DNA of 53,562 nucleotides from Nitrospira sp. GTDB taxonomy: Bacteria > Nitrospirota > Nitrospiria > Nitrospirales > Nitrospiraceae. The stretch is from positions 1 through 53,562 of the forward strand of contig VGXG01000015.1 in assembly GCA_016873395.1 (NCBI GenBank), read 5' to 3'. The stretch's first letter is position 1; the number at the start of each line of letters is the position of its first letter. Shown in pieces: positions 7,177 through 43,603 of this stretch. The notes beneath the pieces were generated by a model. It saw only the letters and a program-made list of their open reading frames with translations. It did no database searches and was not told the origin of the DNA. Made by a program: the position numbers and the translations under genes.

Positions 7177-8313
7177 ATGATGTCCATCGGTCAACGCCAT
7201 AGAGCTGATCCCATGTTGACGGCGCGCCTGTCGAGCAACGCGGATCGTCCAACGGTGTTGGAACTCCGCAAAGTCACCTGCGTCTACGAGAAGGGGCAGT
7301 CAGCGATTGCAGACATCTCCCTCTCCGCCCGCGAGGGGGAAATTCTCTGCCTGCTCGGCCCGTCGGGATGCGGGAAAACGACGACGCTGCGGGTGATCGC
7401 GGGGTTTGAGCCGGTGGCGGCGGGAGAAGTCTACCTCGGAGGCCGGTTGGTCTCATCACCGGATCTGCTCATGCCCACCGAAGCGCGGCGCGTCGGCATG
7501 GTCTTCCAGGAGTATGCGTTGTTCCCTCATCTGCGCGTCACGGAGAACATCGCCTTCGGCCTGCACCATCTCCCCGCGGACCAGCGCCATGCGCAGGTCC
7601 AGACCATGCTCTCGATGATCGGCCTGACCGGTCTCGAGCGGCGGTTTCCCCACGAGCTTTCGGGCGGGCAACAGCAGCGGGTCGCGCTCGCGCGGGCCTT
7701 GGCGCAAAAACCCGTGATCCTCTTGCTGGATGAACCCTTCAGCAACCTCGACCCGGACATGACCGGCAGGATGCGGGAGGATCTGCACAACCTGCTCATG
7801 CACACCAAGACCACGGCCGTCCTCGTCACCCACGACCATGACGAAGCCTTCGCGATGGCCGACCGCATCGCGGTCCTGAACAACGGCCGGATCGAGCAGT
7901 TTGACACGCCGGAAGCCATCTACCATACGCCCGCCACGCCGTTCGTGGCTGATTTCGTCGGCCAAGCCGATTTCATTCCCGGTCTGGTCCAGAACGGGAA
8001 GGTGGTGACCGAGATCGGGGAATTCCCGAACCAGGCCGGCTATCAAGGGGGAACCAAGGTCGTGGTGATGATCCGCCCGGATGACGTCCACATTGTGCCG
8101 CAGGAAGAGTGCTCCGCCCGCATCCTTGCCCGGCAGTTCCGCGGATCGGAAAATCTCTACACGATCGGCCTCCCTTCCGGGCACATCGTCCACAGCAGCG
8201 AAACCTCCACCAGCGTCTATCCCGTGGGTACCCCCGTGGAGATCCAGGTCGTCGCCACCCACACGGTCCTCTTCGAGCAACCAGAGAGCCCACGCGGGCC
8301 AGAAGGGCCTTAG
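7177..8313 (+). CDS. Fe(III) ABC transporter ATP-binding protein (FbpC-like)
   Basis: A 378-residue ATPase that powers the ferric importer. Walker A is GPSGCGKTT, the Q-loop VFQEYALFPH, the signature LSGGQQQR, Walker B VILLLDEPFSNLD and the switch His lies in VLVTHDHDEA. The C-terminal 110 residues form a TOBE/OB-type regulatory domain (VGQADFIPG onward), as in FbpC. Two starts are possible, ATG at 7177 and ATG at 7213; the first adds 12 residues not usually seen in the family. The gene is the last of the fbp operon and converges on a TPR lipoprotein gene 27 bp away. Confidence 0.92.
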   Translation: MMSIGQRHRADPMLTARLSSNADRPTVLELRKVTCVYEKGQSAIADISLSAREGEILCLLGPSGCGKTTTLRVIAGFEPVAAGEVYLGGRLVSSPDLLMPTEARRVGMVFQEYALFPHLRVTENIAFGLHHLPADQRHAQVQTMLSMIGLTGLERRFPHELSGGQQQRVALARALAQKPVILLLDEPFSNLDPDMTGRMREDLHNLLMHTKTTAVLVTHDHDEAFAMADRIAVLNNGRIEQFDTPEAIYHTPATPFVADFVGQADFIPGLVQNGKVVTEIGEFPNQAGYQGGTKVVVMIRPDDVHIVPQEECSARILARQFRGSENLYTIGLPSGHIVHSSETSTSVYPVGTPVEIQVVATHTVLFEQPESPRGPEGP

Positions 8314-27769: not shown

Positions 27770-27891
27770 GGGGTGGCTGGGCTGTTCTTAACTGCGTGCG
27801 TCATCACCCGTTGCATTTTCAAAGAGCAACGGGTACCCGGCATTTTCCGAAGTGCGCGATGCGCGAGCACAAAGAACAGTCCGACCACCCC
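27770..27891 (-). repeat. Long intergenic palindrome, family A, copy 1
   Basis: A 122-nt inverted repeat. The outer arms pair over about 20 nt (CTGTTCTT with AAGAACAG, and GGGGTGG with CCACCCC). Inside are a second hairpin (CACCCGTTGC with GCAACGGGT) and, on the minus strand, the family core GTGCTCGCGCATCGCGCAC. The middle is clearly similar to the copy at 38031. It fills the gap between the RDD gene and the next, divergent gene. Confidence 0.8.
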
Positions 27892-30404: not shown

Positions 30405-31424
30405 CTAAACGATCAGCATCGCGTCGCCGTAGGAATAGAATCGATACCGTTCCTTGATCGCGGCTTGATAGGCCTCCCGTAGCCGCTCGGCTCCCGCAAA
30501 AGCTGATACCAACATGAGCAGCGTTGTATGAGGCAGGTGGAAGTTGGTCATCAGCGCGTCCACGACACGGAATTTGTAGCCCGGTGTGATGAACAGACCC
30601 GTCTCGCCTGTTGTCGGCTCGACCAGGCCGTTCTGTCCCGCTGCGGCTTCCAGGGTCCGCACGACGGTCGTGCCGACCGCCACGACCCGCCTCCCCTCGG
30701 ATTTGGCTTGCTGGATCGCCTGAGCGGCCTCTTTCGTCACTTCGAAGGCTTCCGGCAGCATCACATGCTCCTCGATCCACTCCGTGCGAACAGGTCGGAA
30801 GGTGGCCGGACCCACGTGCAGCGTCACCGTCGCCAGCCGTATGCCCCGCTGCCGCAAGGCTGCCAACAAGGACTCCGTAAAGTGCAGGCCGGCGGTCGGG
30901 GCCGCAATGGCTCCCTCGGCCTTGGCGAACAGTGTTTGGTACCAGATCCGGTCCTGCTCCGTCGGCGACCGTTTGATATAAGGCGGCAAGGGCACCTGCC
31001 CGATATCCTGCATCACCTCCCTCATCGGCCTCGCGCTCGCGACGCGCACAACAGTCCCTGCTGCCCCTTGCCGGACGACCGAGACCAAGACCCCACCGCC
31101 GAGATCAATGACCTGCCCCGGCGCCGCCTTGCCCTTGAGCAGAACCTCCCACTGGTCTTCGGCGAGCTCCTGGACCAGCACCAGCTCGACTTTTCCACCC
31201 CCCGGCTTCTTTCGCCCGGTCAGTCTGGCCGGCAAAACTTTCGTATCGTTGACCACGAGCAGGTCTCCGGGCTCCAGCAGGGCGGGCAAATCGCTCACGT
31301 GCCGATGGGAGCAAACTCCACCGCTACGGGGCAGGACCAGTAACCGTGCCTGATCCCGCGGCTCGGCCGGTCGGTCGGCGATCAACGACGGATCGAAGGG
31401 AAAGTCAAAATCGGATAACTGCAT
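30405..31424 (-). CDS. queA: S-adenosylmethionine:tRNA ribosyltransferase-isomerase
   Basis: A 339-residue enzyme that builds epoxyqueuosine in tRNA by moving the ribosyl group of S-adenosylmethionine to preQ1. Motifs are FDFPFDPSLIADRPAEPRD at the start, LVVNDTKVLPARL, GAIAAPTAGLHFT, TLHVGPATFRPV, VVAVGTTVVRTLE and the end FYSYGDAMLIV. The ATG at 31424 overlaps the stop of the SpoIID-like gene. The frame is open further upstream but that part is the other gene read out of frame. Last gene of the long minus-strand series. Confidence 0.96.
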   Translation of the reverse strand: MQLSDFDFPFDPSLIADRPAEPRDQARLLVLPRSGGVCSHRHVSDLPALLEPGDLLVVNDTKVLPARLTGRKKPGGGKVELVLVQELAEDQWEVLLKGKAAPGQVIDLGGGVLVSVVRQGAAGTVVRVASARPMREVMQDIGQVPLPPYIKRSPTEQDRIWYQTLFAKAEGAIAAPTAGLHFTESLLAALRQRGIRLATVTLHVGPATFRPVRTEWIEEHVMLPEAFEVTKEAAQAIQQAKSEGRRVVAVGTTVVRTLEAAAGQNGLVEPTTGETGLFITPGYKFRVVDALMTNFHLPHTTLLMLVSAFAGAERLREAYQAAIKERYRFYSYGDAMLIV

Positions 31425-32572
31425 CAGGGGATGGCGACGGGAGCGAGCAGGCGCAGGTGTTTGACTTCGGTCCCCGGATAGTAATAGGCCAGAATCGTGG
31501 TAAAGAGGTAGCCGAGGTCTGCCATTTCCTTGGCCCCCCACTGGCAGAGCCCCACTGCATGACCGGCTCCCCGTCCAGACAAGACGACGCTCTCGCCGAT
31601 CGCCTCCACCTCGAATTGGGTGCTGGGAATCACGGTATAGCCCACCAGCCGGCGCAAATCCTCGCCGCGCAGGATCAGCTCTCCCTGGGCATGCAGCAGC
31701 CGGATCTTGGTGACGCGACCGGCCTGGCTGTAGGCGAAGGGGGTCAGGGTGGCGATGGGCCCGATGCCGATCCCCTCCCGCCTGAGCTTGTCTTCCAGAT
31801 CCTGGAGTTTGAAGGAGGCCCGCCACTGGTAGTAGGGAGAATTCGCATCGAAGGGACAGTCCACCCCCTTCAGATAGGGCAGGTCCTGGGACCAGACATT
31901 CATCGCGTCCTCGGTCGGTCCCGCGGCGGTCGAGGAGAAGGCAGCCAGAATGGGGGCACCCCCGTAGGTCAGCACCAAGCCGCGCGTTGACTCCACCGCT
32001 TGCTGGACCCGCTGATCCAGCCCCCGGCGGCCTCGATAGACTTGGTCCTGTGTACCGGCCGCCACATCATACTCCCGCTCCCCATTAGCGAGGCGTTGGT
32101 AGAGGGCGTAGGTCCGGGCCACCACCGCCTGGACCTTGAGCGCTTCCGGGTGCCAGCCGGCGTGCATTTCCGCAGGCACCACACCCTTGACGTACTCTTC
32201 CAGATCGACTTGATTGAGCAGCGTCAGGCCCTTCCCACGGACCATGACCTGCAGCACCCCGCTGACCGAAAGAGAAGCGGAATCCGCCGCGACCGTCACA
32301 TCTCCTTCCCATCCCCTTACCGTCAGGCTCTGAGTCTGGAGTCGATCCCCGTTCACCACCAGCTCGGTCCTGTCGACCCCGGTCGTGACGACAAGGGGTC
32401 CTGGGAGCAGCCGCTCCTCCCCGGCCAGCGGGCGGATCGCCAGCCCCTGCTCGGCCGAGAGGGTAATCTGCTGAACATCCTGCATCAACAGGACGCGGAC
32501 GGAGTCGGCTGCCGAGGCCGGCGCCGCGAGGAGGACTGCCAGCAGGCTACAGGCTGTTGCACGAAGGCCCAT
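31424..32572 (-). CDS. SpoIID/LytB domain protein (probable amidase enhancer or lytic glycosylase)
   Basis: A 382-residue exported protein. The signal peptide (LRATACSLLAVLLAAPASAA) is followed by a beta-rich region and a SpoIID/LytB domain from about residue 130: QVDLEEYVKGVVPAEMHAGWHPEALKVQAVVARTYAL, then the GRGAGHAVGLCQWGAKEMA stretch. In sporulating bacteria SpoIID is a lytic transglycosylase for denuded glycan; Gram-negative homologues are thought to act in cell-wall remodelling. ATG at 32572 is used; a GTG at 32581 overlapping the previous stop as GTGA is an alternative. It is coupled to the DUF2905 gene and to queA. Confidence 0.85.
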   Translation of the reverse strand: MGLRATACSLLAVLLAAPASAADSVRVLLMQDVQQITLSAEQGLAIRPLAGEERLLPGPLVVTTGVDRTELVVNGDRLQTQSLTVRGWEGDVTVAADSASLSVSGVLQVMVRGKGLTLLNQVDLEEYVKGVVPAEMHAGWHPEALKVQAVVARTYALYQRLANGEREYDVAAGTQDQVYRGRRGLDQRVQQAVESTRGLVLTYGGAPILAAFSSTAAGPTEDAMNVWSQDLPYLKGVDCPFDANSPYYQWRASFKLQDLEDKLRREGIGIGPIATLTPFAYSQAGRVTKIRLLHAQGELILRGEDLRRLVGYTVIPSTQFEVEAIGESVVLSGRGAGHAVGLCQWGAKEMADLGYLFTTILAYYYPGTEVKHLRLLAPVAIP

Positions 32573-32577
32573 GCGTT

Positions 32578-32847
32578 TCACCGCCTGGAAAGAACGTACA
32601 GCAACAGGCTTACCACCAGGCTGATCAAGAGACTCGTGGCCAAAGGAAAATAGAACGTGACGTGATCCCGCTTGATCAGGATGTCTCCGGGCAGCTTGCC
32701 GAGCCATCCCAACAACGGGCCGAACAGAGTGCCGACCCCCTCGCCCAGAGCAGGCCACTTGCCGAGCAGCGTCAGGAAGCCGCCGAGGCAGGCGAGCACG
32801 ACGCCTGCCAGGATTAAGACTTTGCCCAGCCAACTCCAGTCCTCCAT
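32578..32847 (-). CDS. DUF2905 small membrane protein
   Basis: An 89-residue membrane protein with two or three helices (LGKVLILAGVVLACLGGFLTLL and TSLLISLVVSLLLYVL) separated by the signature LGKLPGDILIKRDHVTFYFPLATS. This matches the DUF2905 family, usually about 70 residues; here the loop is longer. The function is unknown. It lies 16 bp after asd and overlaps the start region of the SpoIID-like gene. Confidence 0.85.
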   Translation of the reverse strand: MEDWSWLGKVLILAGVVLACLGGFLTLLGKWPALGEGVGTLFGPLLGWLGKLPGDILIKRDHVTFYFPLATSLLISLVVSLLLYVLSRR

Positions 32848-32863
32848 ACATCATCCGAGCGGA

Positions 32864-35164: not shown

Positions 35165-35270
35165 TTCGATCTGGTGATTCCGTGATTTGGCGATCTGGTG
35201 AAGTGTCGGTCGAGCATCTGGATGTTTTTCAATCACCAGGTCACCAAATCTCACTTCGCCAAATTCTTGA
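35165..35270. repeat. Inverted spacer between leuB and the NHL gene
   Basis: Words GATCTGGTGATTCCGTGATTTGGCGA and later, inverted, CACCAGGTCACCAAATC and ACTTCGCCAAAT form an imperfect hairpin across the gap and reach into the last codons of leuB. Confidence 0.5.
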
Positions 35271-36324
35271 GGATCGTGTCGCCCATCTCCTTCGTGCCGA
35301 CCAACTTGGTTCCCACCCCCTGGATGTCTTTGGTCCGATACCCCTGCTCCAGCGTCTTGACGATCGCCTGTTCCACCGCGTCCGCCTCCTTATCCAGACG
35401 CAACTGGTAGGCCAGCAGCATGGCGGCGGAGGCGATCGTGGCAATGGGGTTGGCCAGATTCTTCCCGGCAATGTCCGGTGCGCTCCCATGAATCGGCTCA
35501 TACATGCCGGTCTTGGTCCCGACGCTGGCGGACGGGAGCATGCCGATGGACCCGGTCAACATAGCCGCCTCGTCGCTGAGAATGTCGCCGAACAGGTTGG
35601 TGGTCACCAGGACATCGAATTGCCTGGGGTTCCGGATGAGCTGCATGGCGCAATTGTCTACATACATATGGGACAATTCGACGTCAGGATAGTCGCGATG
35701 GACCTGGCTCACCACGCGTCGCCACAGCTCGGAGGACTCCAGCACGTTGGCCTTGTCCACCGAGGTCACCTTGCGCCGACGCTTGCGCGCCGCTTCGAAG
35801 GCCACCTTGGCGATGCGGGTGATCTCCGGGGTCGTGTAGACCTCGGTGTTGACGCCCCGTTCCCCCTCCGCGGTTTTCTCGATCCCTTTGGGCATGCCGA
35901 AATAGATCCCTCCGGTCAGTTCGCGCACCACCAGGAGATCAATGCCCTCGATCACCTCCCGCTTCAAGGTCGAGGCATCCGCCAGCATCGGGTAGAGCTT
36001 CGCGGGACGGAGGTTGGCAAAGAGCCCCAGTCGCTCCCGCAGGCCCAGCAAGGCCCGCTCCGGGCGCAGCTTGTATTCCAGTCCTTCCCACTTGGGACCG
36101 CCGACCGCACCCAACAGCACCGCGTCGCTCTTTTGCGCCAGCGCCAATGTCTCGTCCGGCAAGGGGACTCCCACCCGGTCGATCGCCTGCCCTCCGACCA
36201 GCCCCTCGACAAACTCAAACGTATGGTGAAACCGCTCGCCCACCGCCTTGAGCAGCTTGACCGCTTCCGGCACGATCTCCTGCCCCACGCCGTCACCAGC
36301 CAGCACCGCGATCGTGGCTTTCAT
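35251..36324 (-). CDS. leuB: 3-isopropylmalate dehydrogenase
   Basis: A 357-residue NAD-dependent decarboxylating dehydrogenase, the third step of leucine synthesis. Motifs are [52 protein letters not shown] (substrate arginines), [30 protein letters not shown] and [24 protein letters not shown], then [18 protein letters not shown]. The length is typical. It follows leuA by 111 bp; the gap holds spacer repeats (GAACCGTTAATCGTGATC with GGCTCACGATCCACG). Confidence 0.97.
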
Positions 36325-36435: not shown

Positions 36436-37989
36436 CTACTGCCAAATCAAGCCGGCGCTTTTCGCCGGATCGAAGTGCTTGGAGGCCCAGAAGGCCAGCT
36501 TGTTCAGCGCATTCAAGTAGGCCTTCGCCGAGGCCACGATGATGTCCGTGTCCGCCCCGTGACCGGTCGTGGTCTTGCCCTCCTCTTCGATTCGGACCGA
36601 CACCTCGCCCTGCGCTTCCGTCCCGCCCGTGATCGCCTCCACCGCATAGCTCAGCAGGCGACTCTTCGTCTTCGTCATGGCGGCGATGGTTCGGTAGGCC
36701 GCATCCACCGGGCCGTCGCCCGTCCCGGTCTGTTTCACCAGCCTCCCGTCGATCTCCAGCTCCACATCGGCCGTGGGAGGCTTGTCGGTCCCGCTCTCCA
36801 CATAGAGGCGCTTGAGTACGAACCGCTCAGGCACCTTGGCGATCTCTTCTGAGACGATCGCCTGCAAGTCTTCTTCGTAGACCTCCTTCTTCTGGTCCGC
36901 CAGCCGTTTGAACTGCTCGAAGGCACGGTTGAGTTCCTCATCGGACAGTTTATAGCCCAACTCCTCCAGATTCTGCCGGAACGCGTGCCGACCGGACAGT
37001 TTCCCCATGACCATCTTGCTCTGCTTGAGCCCGACCGCTTCGGGCTTCATGATCTCGTAGGTGCTCTTCTCCTTCAGCAGCCCGTCCTGGTGGATGCCGG
37101 ACGTGTGGGCAAAGGCGTTGGTTCCGACGATGGCTTTGTTCGGCTGAACCACCATGCCCGTAATCTTGCTGACCAAGCGACTGGTCTTGGAGATCTCCTC
37201 GGTCTTGATGCCCGTGTCGGCCTGATAGAAGTCCTTGCGGGTCCTGAGCCCCATGGCAATCTCTTCCAACGAGGCATTGCCGGCCCGCTCCCCGATGCCG
37301 TTGATCGTGCATTCCACTTGTCCGGCCCCTTCCAGCACGGCGGCCAGCGAGTTGGCCACCGCCAAGCCCAGGTCATTGTGGCAATGGACGGAGATCACAG
37401 CCCGGTCGATGTCCTTGACCTTCTCGCGGATCCCGCGGATCAACCGACCAAATTCCTGCGGTGTCGTATAGCCCACCGTGTCCGGGATGTTCACCGTGGC
37501 GGCGCCGGCCTCGATCACCGCTTCCAACACCTCGTGCATAAAGCCAGGATCAGAGCGGGTGGCGTCCATGGGGGAGAACTCCACGTCCTGCACATAGCCG
37601 CGCGCCCTTTGCACCATCTCCACCGCCCGCTTCAAGGCCTCCGCCCGGGTCATCCGGAATTGGTATGTGAGATGGATGTCCGAGGTCGAGAGAAAGGTAT
37701 GGATGCGAACCTTGGGAGCCCCCTTCAGAGCCTCCCACGCCCGATCGATGTCTTCCGGCCTGGCCCTGGCCAGGCTGCAGATTGTGGGCCCGTCCACTTC
37801 CTGAGCGATCCGGCGGACCGCCTCGAAATCGCCGGGAGAGCTGTACGCAAAGCCGGCCTCGATGATGTCCACACCCAGCCTGGCCAGCTGTTTGGCGATC
37901 ATGACTTTTTCCTCGACGTTCATGCTCGCCCCCGGCGACTGCTCGCCGTCCCGCAAGGTCGTGTCGAATATTCGGATCATGCGCGCCAT
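36436..37989 (-). CDS. leuA: 2-isopropylmalate synthase
   Basis: A 517-residue enzyme that condenses acetyl-CoA with 2-oxoisovalerate, the first leucine-specific step. The catalytic TIM barrel begins [18 protein letters not shown] and contains the metal motif [15 protein letters not shown] and the turn [15 protein letters not shown]-terminal LeuA regulatory domain (about 390-517), the site of leucine feedback, is present and ends near [12 protein letters not shown]. The residues [12 protein letters not shown] replace the more usual EAGFPxxSPGDF. ATG follows AGGTG. A T-box leader with a probable leucine specifier precedes it, so leucine-tRNA charging should control expression. Confidence 0.97.
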
Positions 37990-38030: not shown

Positions 38031-38158
38031 GGGGGTGGCTGGGGTTCGTCCAACTGCGGCCGTCATCACCCTTTGCATTCAACACAGAGCAACGGGTGCC
38101 CGGCGCATTCTGATCGTGCGCGCTCCGGGAGCACAGGACGAACCCTAGGCATACCCCC
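38031..38158 (-). repeat. Long intergenic palindrome, family A, copy 2 (in the leuA leader)
   Basis: A 128-nt inverted repeat with outer arms GGGGTTCGTCC and GGACGAACCC, flanked by GGGGGT and ACCCCC. The centre (CATCACCC, TTGCATT, AGAGCAACGGGTGCCCGG) is homologous to the copy at 27770 although the outer stem has another sequence. It lies between the T-box terminator and the leuA start codon, so any full-length leuA mRNA carries it. Confidence 0.8.
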
Positions 38159-38161
38159 AAC

Positions 38162-38449
38162 AAAAAAGCCTTCATCCCACCCAGGGACGAAGGCTCGCGC
38201 GCTCCGTGGTACCACCCTGCTTCGATGCCCTGCTTCGAACGACGCGCGGGCACCCTTCATTGAGGACCCATCTCGAGGGTCAGGCGGAACCCATTACCAT
38301 CCCGAGGAGGGGGAATTCACGGGCTCGGCTCCGAGGCGAGTTCGGCGCTCGACGGGCTGGCTTGCACCCTGTCCTCCCTTATTCCAGAAGGACGCCGCCA
38401 GCTCTCTGGTGACCGTCGGAACCGCCTACTACTCCTCTTCTTCGCCGCT
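38162..38449 (-). promoter_or_regulatory. T-box riboswitch leader of leuA
   Basis: On the minus strand the conserved T-box AGGGTGGTACCACGG is at 38218-38204. It is followed by an intrinsic terminator (38195-38162): a 12-bp stem, AGCCTTCGTCCC with GGGATGAAGGCT, ending in a run of six T. Stem I lies at about 38449-38330, with GAGGAGTAGTAGG at its base, AGAGAGCTGG and GGTGCAAGCCAGC in the upper part, then GAACTCGCCTCGGAGC. By comparison with known T-boxes (GAA-codon-xxCCUxGGAGC) the specifier is CUC, leucine, complement of 38340-38338. Uncharged tRNA-Leu would stabilise the antiterminator and allow leuA transcription. T-boxes on leuA are known outside Firmicutes, notably in Deltaproteobacteria. 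The promoter must lie in or upstream of the end of pssA. Confidence 0.92.
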
Positions 38450-39262
38450 CTACTGCCTGGAGTCTAACACGGGTGGCTCGGACCCGGCAACTCCCTTCTT
38501 GCCGAACGCCTTGGCAAGCAGGCTCACGCCCTTTTCGACGGGGCCCAGCGCTGCATAGCCGGCAAAAACCACGAAGAGCATCAACTGGGGCCAGGCGATG
38601 ACCAGCATCAACCCCAAGATCGCCCAGACCAGATAGTTGAAATGGTACCCCCGCTTGAACTTGAGATCTTTGAAGCTCCGGTACTTGACCGTGCTGACCA
38701 TCAGAAAAGCCAGACCGAGGGTCATGACTAAAATCAACAGCGGCTTGATCTCCGCCCCCATGCGGACGATGTGATGATCGAAAATCACCAGGGACGCGAT
38801 CACGCTGGCGGCGGCCGGGATCGGCAAGCCCGTGAAATACCTGCTCTCGGAGGTGGTCGCCATGACGTTGAACCGGGCGAGGCGCAGGGCGCCGCAGGCG
38901 ACGAAAGCGAACATGACCGCCGACCCCGCCATGCCGTGGGTGCTGAGCGCCCAGGAGTAAATCAGCAGCCCAGGCGCCACGCCGAAGGAGACGAGATCCG
39001 CCAGGGAATCATACTCCACCCCGAACTGACTGGTGCTGTTCATCCAGCGAGCGGACTTCCCGTCGAGCATGTCGAAGATCAGCGCGACCAGGATGGCCAC
39101 GGCAGCCGTCACGTAGTTGGCGTTGAAAACGGCAAGGATTGAGAAGAGCCCGGAGAATAAATTTCCGGTCGTCAGCAGATTGGGGATCAAGTAGACTCCC
39201 CGTCTCCGCTTGGATTCCTTAAGAACCGTCTTGCTGTCTTTCAAGAAGGTGCCGCGCATCAC
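38450..39262 (-). CDS. pssA: CDP-diacylglycerol--serine O-phosphatidyltransferase
   Basis: A 270-residue membrane enzyme that makes phosphatidylserine from CDP-diacylglycerol and serine. The CDP-alcohol phosphotransferase motif D-x2-D-G-x2-A-R-x8-G-x3-D-x3-D is complete, from DMLDGKSARW to YDSLAD. About eight helices follow the usual plan, with LIPNLLTTGNLFSGLFSI at the N-terminus and LARFNVMA in the middle. It lies downstream of psd, which uses its product to make phosphatidylethanolamine. Its last codons abut the leuA T-box leader. Confidence 0.95.
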   Translation of the reverse strand: MMRGTFLKDSKTVLKESKRRRGVYLIPNLLTTGNLFSGLFSILAVFNANYVTAAVAILVALIFDMLDGKSARWMNSTSQFGVEYDSLADLVSFGVAPGLLIYSWALSTHGMAGSAVMFAFVACGALRLARFNVMATTSESRYFTGLPIPAAASVIASLVIFDHHIVRMGAEIKPLLILVMTLGLAFLMVSTVKYRSFKDLKFKRGYHFNYLVWAILGLMLVIAWPQLMLFVVFAGYAALGPVEKGVSLLAKAFGKKGVAGSEPPVLDSRQ

Positions 39263-39343: not shown

Positions 39344-40015
39344 TTACTTTGCCTCTAGTGAAATATCCGCCAACTCAGCGAGGATCGTCTCCCCGCCCTT
39401 GACACAGTCTCCGATCCCGACGTTCAGCCTGGCCGCCAGGGGGAGGAACAGGTCCATCCGCGAACCGAACCGGATCAACCCATACCGTTCCCCGCGGCTC
39501 ACGTGCTCGCCCGGCTTGGCCCAGCAGACGATCCGACGCGCGATCAACCCCGCGACCTGGACACAGAGCACCTTGCTCCCTTGCCGGGTCTGAATCATCA
39601 GCGCGTTCTGCTCGTTCCGCAGCGTTGCCTCCGGCCGATTGGCCGCCACGAACCGGCCCGGCTGGTACGCGATGTCCCGGATCGTTCCGTCACAAGGAAC
39701 CCGGTTCACGTGAACATCGAACACGTTAAGGAAGATGCTGATCCGCTTCGCCTGGTCCTTCAGAAATCGCGGCTCGTATTCTGTTTCGATCGCGATGACG
39801 CGACCGTCTCCCGGCGCCACCACGGCCCCCTCAACCTGGGGCACAGCCCGCTTGGGATTGCGAAAGAACCAAGCCGTGAAGAGGGTTGCGCCTCCCAGCA
39901 GCAGCATCAGCCCAGCCCAGCCGAGGGCCCCGGCCATCGCGGCGGCCCCGCCGGCACCGGCCACGAACGGAAGCCCTTCTCTGACAATGGGAATACCGAC
40001 CGCGCGATCTGCCAT
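39344..40015 (-). CDS. psd: Phosphatidylserine decarboxylase proenzyme
   Basis: A 223-residue membrane-bound pyruvoyl enzyme of the short Psd type that turns phosphatidylserine into phosphatidylethanolamine. An N-terminal hydrophobic pair is followed by FFRNPKRAVP, VVAPGDGRVI, SIFLNVFDVHVNRVP and WAKPGEHVSRGERYGLIRFGSRMDLFLP. The self-cleavage and pyruvoyl site is the GS of RFGSRMD, the short-type counterpart of LGST. Length and motifs are complete. It lies between ilvC and pssA; psd-pssA inside the branched-chain block is a common arrangement. Confidence 0.95.
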   Translation of the reverse strand: MADRAVGIPIVREGLPFVAGAGGAAAMAGALGWAGLMLLLGGATLFTAWFFRNPKRAVPQVEGAVVAPGDGRVIAIETEYEPRFLKDQAKRISIFLNVFDVHVNRVPCDGTIRDIAYQPGRFVAANRPEATLRNEQNALMIQTRQGSKVLCVQVAGLIARRIVCWAKPGEHVSRGERYGLIRFGSRMDLFLPLAARLNVGIGDCVKGGETILAELADISLEAK

Positions 40016-40089: not shown

Positions 40090-41205
<1,116 letters not shown>

Positions 41206-41207
<2 letters not shown>

Positions 41208-41724
41208 ATTCTTTCGCGACCCGCTTCGGCTGGACCGCCGCGGGGCGGATCGGCTCCCGCGCGATGGCCACGCGGCCGGTCCTCGCCAGTTCTTTGATAC
41301 CCAGCGGCTGCAGCAAGTTGATGATCGCCTCGATCTTGTGGACGTCCCCTGTGGCCTCGAGCGTGTAGGTGGTGGGGGTGGAGTCGATCACGTTGGCGCG
41401 GAAAATATCCGTGATGCGCAACGCCTCGGCCCGATCCTCCGGCTTCGTATGGACCTTGATGAGCACGGTCTCGCGCGCGACGAACTCGCTCTCGTTGAGG
41501 TCCACCACTTTGATCACGTCGATCAGCTTGTTGAGCTGTTTGACGATCTGCTCGATGATCCGGTCATCGCCCTTGGTGACGATCGTCATCATGGACATCG
41601 AGGGATCGAGGGTTGGGGCCACCGACAGGCTCTCGATATTGAAGCCGCGCCCGCTGAAGAGGCCGGCCACCCGCGACAGCACGCCGAACTTATTCTCGAC
41701 GATGACCGAGATAATGTGTTCCAT
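41206..41724 (-). CDS. ilvN: Acetolactate synthase small (regulatory) subunit
   Basis: A 172-residue regulatory subunit that makes acetolactate synthase sensitive to valine. An N-terminal ACT domain (HIISVIVENKFGVLSRVAGLFSGRGFNIESLSV) is followed by the ALS_ss_C domain (ETVLIKVHTKPEDRAEALRITDIFRANVID). The length is typical of IlvH/IlvN. It lies 107 bp after ilvB; the gap holds an inverted spacer. The last 15 residues, with several Pro, Arg and Lys, are probably a tail. Confidence 0.95.
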
Positions 41725-41729
41725 CTTCA

Positions 41730-41825
41730 GACCGGAGCTTATAGCTGATGGCTGATGGCCGGCTGCGAGGAAACCGAGAACGACAGGTTCCTGCTATCAG
41801 CTATACGCCATAAGCCATTAGCTCT
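41730..41825. repeat. Inverted spacer between ilvB and ilvN
   Basis: AGCTTATAGCTGATGGC at one end and GCTATCAGCTATACGCCATAAGC at the other can pair imperfectly. The word set GCTATACGCCAT, AGCCATTAGCTCTT recurs at 33903-33946. Confidence 0.55.
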
Positions 41826-41830
41826 TTTCT

Positions 41831-43603
41831 TCACGCCGTCAGGACCGTATCCTTGTCTTCTCCCGCCACTTTCACGCCCGCCTGCTTCTTCTTGAGCTCC
41901 GGCGGATCGGCCAGGATCATCTCATGGTTGCAGCCGCCGGCCGGGATCATGGGATAGCAGTTCTCGTACTGGTCCACCGGCACGTCCACCAAGACCGGCT
42001 TGTTGACGGCCAGAGCCTCCTTGATCACGTCATCGACCTCCGACACCTTGGCGGCGCGCAACCCGACGGCTCCATAGGCATCCGCCAGCTTGATGAAGTC
42101 GGGCGTCGCATCCAGGTAGCTGGAGGCGTAGCGGCCTTCGTAGAAAAGGTCCTGCCACTGGCGCACCATGCCGTGGTAACGGTTGTTGACGATAAAGACT
42201 TTGACCGGCAGCCTGTTCACCACCGCCGTGGCCAGTTCCTGCGTGTTCATCTGAAAACTGCCGTCCCCCGCGACGCAGAGCACGAGCTGATCCGGAAACG
42301 CGGCTTGGGCGCCCATGGCGGCCGGGAATCCAAACCCCATCGTCCCCAACCCGCCGGAAGTCAGCCACCGGCGCGGCTTGGCCAGCTTGAAATACTGGGC
42401 CGTCCACATCTGGTGTTGCCCGACATCCGTCGCCACGATCGGGTCCCGATCCTTGGTCAGCTCATACAGCCGCTTGATGAGATGCTGCGGCTTGATAGGC
42501 CCCTGGGAGTCCTGTTCGTACGCCAGGGGATGGGCCCGCCGCCACTCGTTGATCTGGTCCCACCAGGGCTTCCGCAGCTCCTTCTGCTCCCCGTTCACCG
42601 TCGCTTTCAGGATTTGGTTCAATTCCCGCAGCACACGCTTGCAATCGCCGACGATCGGGATATCCACGTTGACGTTCTTCCTGATGGACGTGGGATCGAT
42701 GTCGATGTGGATGACCTTGGCATGGGGGCAAAACTCGGACACCTTGCCAGTCACCCGGTCATCGAAGCGGGCTCCCACCGCGATCACCAAGTCGGAATAG
42801 TGCACCGTCATGTTGGCCCAGTAGGTGCCGTGCATCCCCATCATGCCCATCGAGAGAGGGTGTTCGCCGGGGAAGGCCCCCAGGGCCATGAGCGTCATGT
42901 CCACCGGGATCTGGCACAGCTCCGCCAACTCGAGGAGTTCTTCGGAGGCCCCGGAGAAGATCACCCCGCCGCCCACGTAGAGGACCGGCTTCTTGGCCTT
43001 GGTGATGGCCTCGGCTGCCTGCTTGATTTGCCACTTGTTGCCGTCATACGTCGGGTTGTAACCCCGGATCGACACGGAGCCGGGATACTTGAACTCCGCC
43101 TTGTTCATGGAGACGTCTTTCGGGATATCCACGAGCACGGGACCCGGTCGACCGGTCGTGGCGACGTAGAAGGCCTCTTTGATCGTCACGGCCAGGTCGT
43201 TGACATCCTTGACGAGGAAGTTGTACTTCGTGCAAGGACGGCTAAGGCCGATGTTGTCGGCTTCTTGAAACGCATCGTTCCCGATCAGGCTGGTCGACAC
43301 CTGACCGGTAAAGCAGACGAGCGGCACCGAATCCATGTAGGCGTCGGCCAGGGCCGTCACGACGTTGGTCATGCCGGGCCCAGAGGTCACAAGCGCCACG
43401 CCCGCCTTGCCCGTCGCTTTGGCATACCCCTCGGCCATATGGCCCGCCCCTTGTTCGTGGCGGGTGAGGATAACCTGGATGTCCTTTTGCTGATGCAGGA
43501 TATCGAAGATTTTCAGGACGACCCCTCCGGGTAAAGCAAAGATCGTCTTGACCCCTTCGCGCTTGAGACACTCCACAAAGATCTCTGCGCCTGTAAGTTT
43601 CAT
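41831..43603 (-). CDS. ilvB: Acetolactate synthase large (catalytic) subunit
   Basis: A 590-residue thiamine-diphosphate enzyme that starts valine, leucine and isoleucine synthesis from pyruvate. The N-terminal domain has GAEIFVECLKREGVKTIFALPGG with the catalytic glutamate in RHEQGAGHMAEGYAKATGK, and the C-terminal domain the cofactor motif AGDGSFQMNTQELATAV.VIVNN. The FAD-fold middle part is complete. The ATG follows GAGGACAGAGCG. Upstream are a promoter and a terminator-like hairpin, so attenuation is likely. It leads the ilvBNC genes. Confidence 0.97.
   Translation of the reverse strand: MKLTGAEIFVECLKREGVKTIFALPGGVVLKIFDILHQQKDIQVILTRHEQGAGHMAEGYAKATGKAGVALVTSGPGMTNVVTALADAYMDSVPLVCFTGQVSTSLIGNDAFQEADNIGLSRPCTKYNFLVKDVNDLAVTIKEAFYVATTGRPGPVLVDIPKDVSMNKAEFKYPGSVSIRGYNPTYDGNKWQIKQAAEAITKAKKPVLYVGGGVIFSGASEELLELAELCQIPVDMTLMALGAFPGEHPLSMGMMGMHGTYWANMTVHYSDLVIAVGARFDDRVTGKVSEFCPHAKVIHIDIDPTSIRKNVNVDIPIVGDCKRVLRELNQILKATVNGEQKELRKPWWDQINEWRRAHPLAYEQDSQGPIKPQHLIKRLYELTKDRDPIVATDVGQHQMWTAQYFKLAKPRRWLTSGGLGTMGFGFPAAMGAQAAFPDQLVLCVAGDGSFQMNTQELATAVVNRLPVKVFIVNNRYHGMVRQWQDLFYEGRYASSYLDATPDFIKLADAYGAVGLRAAKVSEVDDVIKEALAVNKPVLVDVPVDQYENCYPMIPAGGCNHEMILADPPELKKKQAGVKVAGEDKDTVLTA

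Follow-up and report, generated by a model that had tools for sequence, protein, structure and literature searches.

The minus strand of the window (the whole 53,562-nucleotide stretch of Nitrospira sp. DNA that was analyzed; Table 1) carries, between pssA and leuA, a genuine, canonical leucine T-box that shows a minor structural peculiarity. From its sequence, structure, covariation and position, together with the tRNA complement of the host, we infer that this element regulates leuA. In all likelihood, it belongs to the class I T-boxes that act by transcription attenuation, with uncharged tRNA-Leu(GAG) as its ligand and leuA, probably together with leuB, under its control. The more surprising material is found in the relatives of this T-box rather than in the window copy.

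When the minus strand was searched with the Rfam T-box model (RF00230), as the preliminary description had proposed, a significant end-to-end match was obtained (58.0 bits), though below the gathering score of 93 bits, which is a curation threshold and not a defining biological feature. With the terminator included, the whole element extends from 38162 to 38451. A search of the whole genome returned a single match (E 4.2e-12), which makes this the sole T-box of the genome. Because its score is below the gathering score, the element is missed by default cmscan, which reported only RNase P and a tRNA for the window; it was recovered by cmscan in E-value mode only. As the same kind of element passes the gathering score in 58 of the 396 genomes of the phylum, the low score reflects the divergence of the window copy itself, and it is accompanied by an apical loop of Stem I that is longer by an insert of 25 nt. 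The minimum free energy of the leader alone was not exceptional (z −1.24), which is no surprise in an element that is rich in GC and has two states. Every landmark named in the preliminary description was recovered in its place on the minus strand; however, AGUAGUA, which had been taken for the base of Stem I, is really the 5′ strand of the specifier loop.

Table 1. Features of the leuA T-box and of the neighboring genes, in window positions.
Feature	Position	Strand	Basis or remark
T-box leader	38180..38451	(-)	RF00230 match, model 1-219, cmscan 58.0 bits, E 5.3e-12
Stem I (K-turn region, specifier loop, elbow-binding distal part)	38326..38448	(-)	Rfam alignment
AGGAGUAGUA, 5′ strand of helix and specifier loop	38427..38436	(-)	conserved in relatives
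CAGAGAGCUGG with AGAGAG, 5′ half of interdigitated T-loop (elbow) module	38398..38408	(-)	Rfam alignment
Extra hairpin, apical loop of Stem I	38370..38394	(-)	-11.3 kcal/mol, 25 nt
GGUGCAAGCCAGC, 3′ half of elbow module	38356..38368	(-)	Rfam alignment
GAA-CUC	38338..38343	(-)	
Specifier CUC (Leu)	38338..38340	(-)	CUC in nearly all relatives
Stem II with S-turn strands (GUGAA ... GGUAA)	38288..38324	(-)	Rfam alignment
Stem IIA/B region	38253..38287	(-)	Rfam alignment
Stem III	38224..38253	(-)	Rfam alignment
AGGGUGGUACCACGG (T-box sequence)	38204..38218	(-)	with UGGU bulge
Antiterminator with T-box sequence	38183..38218	(-)	fold -12.2 kcal/mol, UGGUACC bulge; UGGU 38211-38214
Intrinsic terminator	38162..38195	(-)	13-bp stem, -23.3 kcal/mol, then T6
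leuA, 2-isopropylmalate synthase, regulated gene (predicted)	36436..37989	(-)	NCBIfam NF002086 equivalog, 812 bits
leuB, 3-isopropylmalate dehydrogenase, downstream of leuA	35251..36324	(-)	TIGR00169, 527 bits
pssA, phosphatidylserine synthase	38450..39262	(-)	TIGR00473; stop codon 38450-38452 abuts Stem I
psd, phosphatidylserine decarboxylase	39344..40015	(-)	NF003678
ilvC	40090..41103	(-)	NCBIfam equivalog; block ilvC-ilvN-ilvB 40090..43603
ilvN	41206..41724	(-)	NCBIfam equivalog
ilvB	41831..43603	(-)	NCBIfam equivalog

Stem I contains AGGAGUAGUA, CAGAGAGCUGG, the inserted hairpin, GGUGCAAGCC, and GAA-CUC. The predicted fold of the leader has the two marks of class I, namely a long Stem I with the interdigitated T-loop module (AGAGAG and GGUGCAA, which lie on the Rfam consensus) and a Stem II with S-turn, the latter indicated by the Rfam alignment and by the match of R1, a Stem I/II core model from another family, to positions 38285–38450 (E 4.6e-11). 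The elbow module of the window copy carries the extra hairpin. L004, L005, L038, L198, and L199 likewise have a hairpin at this site, but most relatives have none; among the genomes bearing it, both sides of its stem have changed (GUCCU/AGGAC, GUCCG/CGGAC, GUCUG/CAGAC). In 43 thinned relatives with a canonical Stem I, 95.2% of the cells hold standard pairs, compared with a mean of 85.4% (maximum 87.1%) for 200 shuffles, the structure so assessed having been derived from that very alignment. Two-sided change was seen at 14 pairs, and 3 of the 22 predicted pairs cannot be counted as support because they lie inside the specifier loop and hardly vary.

Antiterminator and terminator have positions 38183–38195 in common and are mutually exclusive. 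The antiterminator core of 106 homologues reads ACG/CGU (82), GCG/CGC (14), GCG/CGU (8), or GCG/UGC (2), and in none of the 106 was the mismatched combination ACG/CGC (A·C) encountered. The covariation among relatives, thus, supports the predicted Stem I and antiterminator. The terminator corresponds to what had been claimed for it, and in relatives the pairing of terminator arms is more stable between native partners (mean −21.0 kcal/mol) than after the partners have been swapped (−18.4 kcal/mol).

The agreement of the specifier CUC with leuA, also claimed beforehand, is borne out by the assignment of the downstream gene and by the conservation of CUC in the relatives. The genome contains five tRNA-Leu genes, one for each anticodon. 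That for tRNA-Leu(GAG) is present once and ends with A73-CCA; the tRNA, therefore, fits both contact sites, CUC and UGGU. With leucine plentiful, the 3′ end of the charged tRNA would be unable to bind the UGGU bulge; with UGGU unbound, the 13-bp terminator would form and RNA polymerase would halt ahead of leuA. Upon leucine starvation, uncharged tRNA-Leu(GAG) would base-pair with the leader at two places, CUC through its anticodon and UGGU through its ACCA end, and the bound tRNA would steady the antiterminator, thereby permitting transcription of leuA.

The leader is preceded on the same strand by ilvB, ilvN, ilvC, psd, and pssA and followed by leuA, with which leuB is probably co-transcribed. 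The closest named relatives of the window LeuA are from Nitrospira/Nitrospirota MAGs. From the pssA stop codon to AGGAGUAGUA there are 13 nt in the window, mostly 10–16 nt in its family, and 11–15 nt in family f16. To assess where transcription of leuA might start, the region in front of the T-box was scanned by a simple TTGACA/TATAAT match (scored out of 12) and compared with shuffles. No consensus promoter was found before the T-box in the window's family, nearly all members scoring 5–8 of 12, which is shuffle level. Scores of 10–11 were reached at four loci of family f9, at the f16 loci L084, L088, L208, and L210, and at 12 of the 16 loci of the Syntrophus phylum. As a consensus promoter is missing in front of the window T-box, unlike in several relatives, we lean slightly toward an attenuator inside an ilvBNC-psd-pssA-leuA operon rather than a weak promoter of its own. 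That leuA instead forms its own transcription unit, governed by a promoter within the last part of pssA and not by an operon-internal attenuator, is a substantial possibility, if short of an even chance: clear TTGACA-type promoters occupy the homologous place not only in f9 but also in the four f16 loci and the majority of the second-phylum loci, and the best promoter-like match of the window (TTGCCG-18-TAGACT, 8 of 12) sits at the homologous site, a score which 2% of the shuffles reach. Against it stand the scores of the other family members and the short gap after the pssA stop codon in most of them. However, in f16 the gap is so short that the promoter must lie inside pssA; thus, abutment alone is no proof of an operon-internal switch.

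Between the terminator and leuA, the minus strand carries a long hairpin-forming element (38031–38162, −62 kcal/mol), of which 12 other partial copies with 77–95% identity are present in the genome, one of them at 27770–27871 of the window; it is a dispersed palindromic repeat. Elsewhere on the minus strand of the window (31424–32854), a SpoIID/LytB-domain protein is encoded (TIGR02669, 238 bits); its host is not known to sporulate.

T-boxes are regarded as a Gram-positive device with few outliers. RF00230 matches were obtained for 125 of the 396 genomes of the phylum: 108 of the about 110 genomes scanned from the window's family (two are listed without a T-box) are among them. Of the others, six come from two further families of its class and eleven from three families in other parts of the phylum. 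In family f2 of the same order, no T-box was found in the genomes listed. In the Nitrospirota loci that were read, the T-box always precedes leuA wherever leuA is in the stretch. In the Syntrophus phylum, 16 of 395 genomes possess a T-box, in all 16 cases before leuA and with CUC. Upstream of it, psd-pssA is found in most readable loci of both phyla, with psd and/or pssA recognized in 11 of the 16 Syntrophus-phylum loci. Among ∼110 distinct homologues, CUC is the specifier in nearly all, and three genomes of the window's family, L097, L102, and L202, have CUG. The two CUG genomes that were checked by a tRNA family search encode tRNA-Leu for both GAG and CAG, so that CUG would seem to reflect a change in which isoacceptor is sensed and not a response to tRNA loss. 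A leucine T-box is, thus, standard equipment of the Nitrospira family and occupies the same place in a second phylum.

Relatives lacking the T-box were checked by a whole-genome scan and by permissive cmscan, and the latter disclosed no hidden, diverged T-box at nine of their leuA loci. In L035–L037 (Nitrospirota), which have leuA without a T-box, pssA runs nearly straight into leuA, as is expected if the leader had been deleted from the operon. Two further candidates were rejected: a second T-box in L006 (GGUGGAACCGCG at 7376) is without specifier, and GGUGGCACCAUG at the start of leuA in L028, L030, and L062 constitutes a ribosome-binding site plus start codon.

Comparison with other leaders, likewise proposed in the preliminary description, revealed that leuA T-boxes with CUC recur across Nitrospirota and in the second phylum. 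A LeuA tree was computed by a quick method from 99 rows. Its T-box-bearing rows fall into three deep regions, made up of a pair of groups that belong to other classes of the phylum, the group holding the window, and a clade of the second phylum. This clade joins T-box-less rows of its own phylum (support 99) and does not lie inside Nitrospirota, and no exchange between the two phyla was seen in the tree. On it, the T-box label changes five times (L107 counted as T-box-bearing), a count that does not distinguish gain from loss. The common junction, specifier, and antiterminator lead us to favor one old origin of the leuA T-box followed by several losses over repeated transfer. Of the two options raised initially, transfer or deep ancestry, the latter is, thus, favored by the near-universal presence in the family, the occurrence in other families and the common junction, and a lone transfer is not. 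Horizontal acquisition from Firmicutes or from relatives of Geobacter would be in keeping with the concentration of T-boxes in Gram-positives and with their patchiness across Nitrospirota and the second phylum, but it is improbable, as it would require the leader alone to have entered the same psd-pssA/leuA junction, identical along with CUC in both phyla, several times, and as the T-box-associated LeuA proteins of the second phylum group with T-box-less ones from that phylum. An ancient transfer may have preceded the split of the families.

It is very improbable that the window copy is a decayed T-box no longer capable of switching, the terminator merely lowering leuA expression: it does belong to the lowest RF00230 tier of its family (most relatives score 70–105 bits), its elbow-binding loop carries the inserted hairpin, and the genomes listed from family f2 show no T-box, but all contact elements (GAA-CUC, AGAGAG, GGUGCAA, UGGU, and the matching tRNA) as well as antiterminator and terminator are intact, and the hairpin itself has changed on both sides among its bearers.

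Among the relatives, departures from the canonical layout were found. In family f9, six of seven genomes (L230–L235) have a T-box, and in all six Stem I is closed by a plain hairpin only a few base pairs beyond the specifier loop, without AGAGAG or GGUGCAA, whereas Stem II with its S-turn strands, UGGU, and the terminator are kept. The elbow-less leuA T-box of f9 (L204, 1461–1740; L230–L235) stands behind a TTGACA/CATAAT-type promoter. Beyond f9, the R1 model without elbow module identified no more elbow-less T-boxes at full score; the shorter R1 spans in some Nitrospira correspond to an insert-bearing Stem I in which AGUAGUA lies ∼90–200 nt upstream of the specifier. The converse was observed in L208 (1501–1684) and L210 (2191–2373, minus strand), which keep a full Stem I but are without Stem II or IIA/B, positions that the Rfam alignment itself skips. 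Their sisters L084 and L088 have long linkers. In L011, L015, L021, L225, and others, the distal 5′ strand of Stem I contains an insert with ends resembling CAGAATGTT...AACATTCTG; such inserts in Nitrospira range from tens of bases to about 110 nt and are apparently tolerated.

Judging from these sequences, one leuA T-box lineage, constant in its amino acid and mostly also in its junction, has, we think with moderate confidence, given rise to three layouts: elbow module and Stem II together (the window and most relatives), Stem II only (L230–L235 of f9), and elbow module only (L208 and L210). Each of them retains an intrinsic terminator. If functional, they would represent a natural deletion series in which two tRNA-holding modules are able to replace each other. 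T-boxes that lack Stem II have been described as specific for glycine, and most of those that lack the elbow module as acting on translation (PMC10482949); the elbow module has been called essential for transcriptional T-boxes (PMC7583486). If functional, the elbow-less layout would contradict the rule that transcriptional T-boxes need this module, and the Stem II-less layout the rule of glycine specificity. With natural T-boxes that are devoid of one or the other, it can be tested directly, on a single tRNA and a single gene, whether transcriptional control needs each module.

An open-access search for T-box and Nitrospirota jointly yielded no paper, the sole Nitrospira/Nitrospirae match being about RNase P; Gutierrez-Preciado 2009 and Vitreschak 2008 may mention Nitrospira T-boxes. 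Since 58 genomes of the phylum pass the Rfam cut-off, automated annotation very probably lists Nitrospirota T-boxes already. New are the f9 T-boxes without elbow module yet with terminator, the two Stem II-less genomes, the three CUG readers, and a window copy whose elbow-binding loop holds an additional hairpin and which lacks a clear promoter. The phyla with T-boxes have been listed along with two scenarios for their origin, spread from Firmicutes versus a deeper ancestor (PMC3766115), a question on which the occurrence in two phyla bears.

The closest described relative of the window element is the leuA T-box of Geobacter. As the preliminary description had stated for Deltaproteobacteria, such T-boxes have been published for Geobacter sulfurreducens, G. 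metallireducens, and Pelobacter carbinolicus (PMC2494555, PMC2700814), and that of Geobacter senses tRNA-Leu(GAG) (PMC2700814). Gene, tRNA-Leu(GAG), and antiterminator mechanism are common to these and, as predicted, the window element, which differs by the extra apical hairpin of Stem I, the lack of a consensus promoter, and the abutment of Stem I on the pssA stop codon. The T-box genomes of the Syntrophus phylum, which presumably include Geobacter relatives, often have the psd-pssA-leuA order in common with the window. With class I transcriptional T-boxes of the Bacillus subtilis tyrS type (classes as defined in PMC10482949), the window element shares Stem I, Stem II with S-turn, Stems IIA/B and III, antiterminator, and terminator; it is set apart by its occurrence outside the usual Gram-positive range, its 25-nt apical hairpin, and its possible position inside an operon. 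The ilv-leu T-box of B. subtilis controls, in response to leucine, one ilvBNC-leuABCD operon (PMC12452182). Leucine-specific control of branched-chain synthesis genes would be common to both, but the window T-box follows ilvBNC-psd-pssA and would select leuA onwards only. The layout of L208 and L210, with elbow module and without Stem II, resembles that of class II (glyQS), which is described as glycine-specific, whereas these two are leucine-specific and have an intrinsic terminator. Similarly, the f9 layout, without elbow module and with Stem II, resembles class IV, but T-boxes of class III/IV (actinobacterial ileS) are described as mostly translational, whereas those of f9 combine leucine specificity with an intrinsic terminator.
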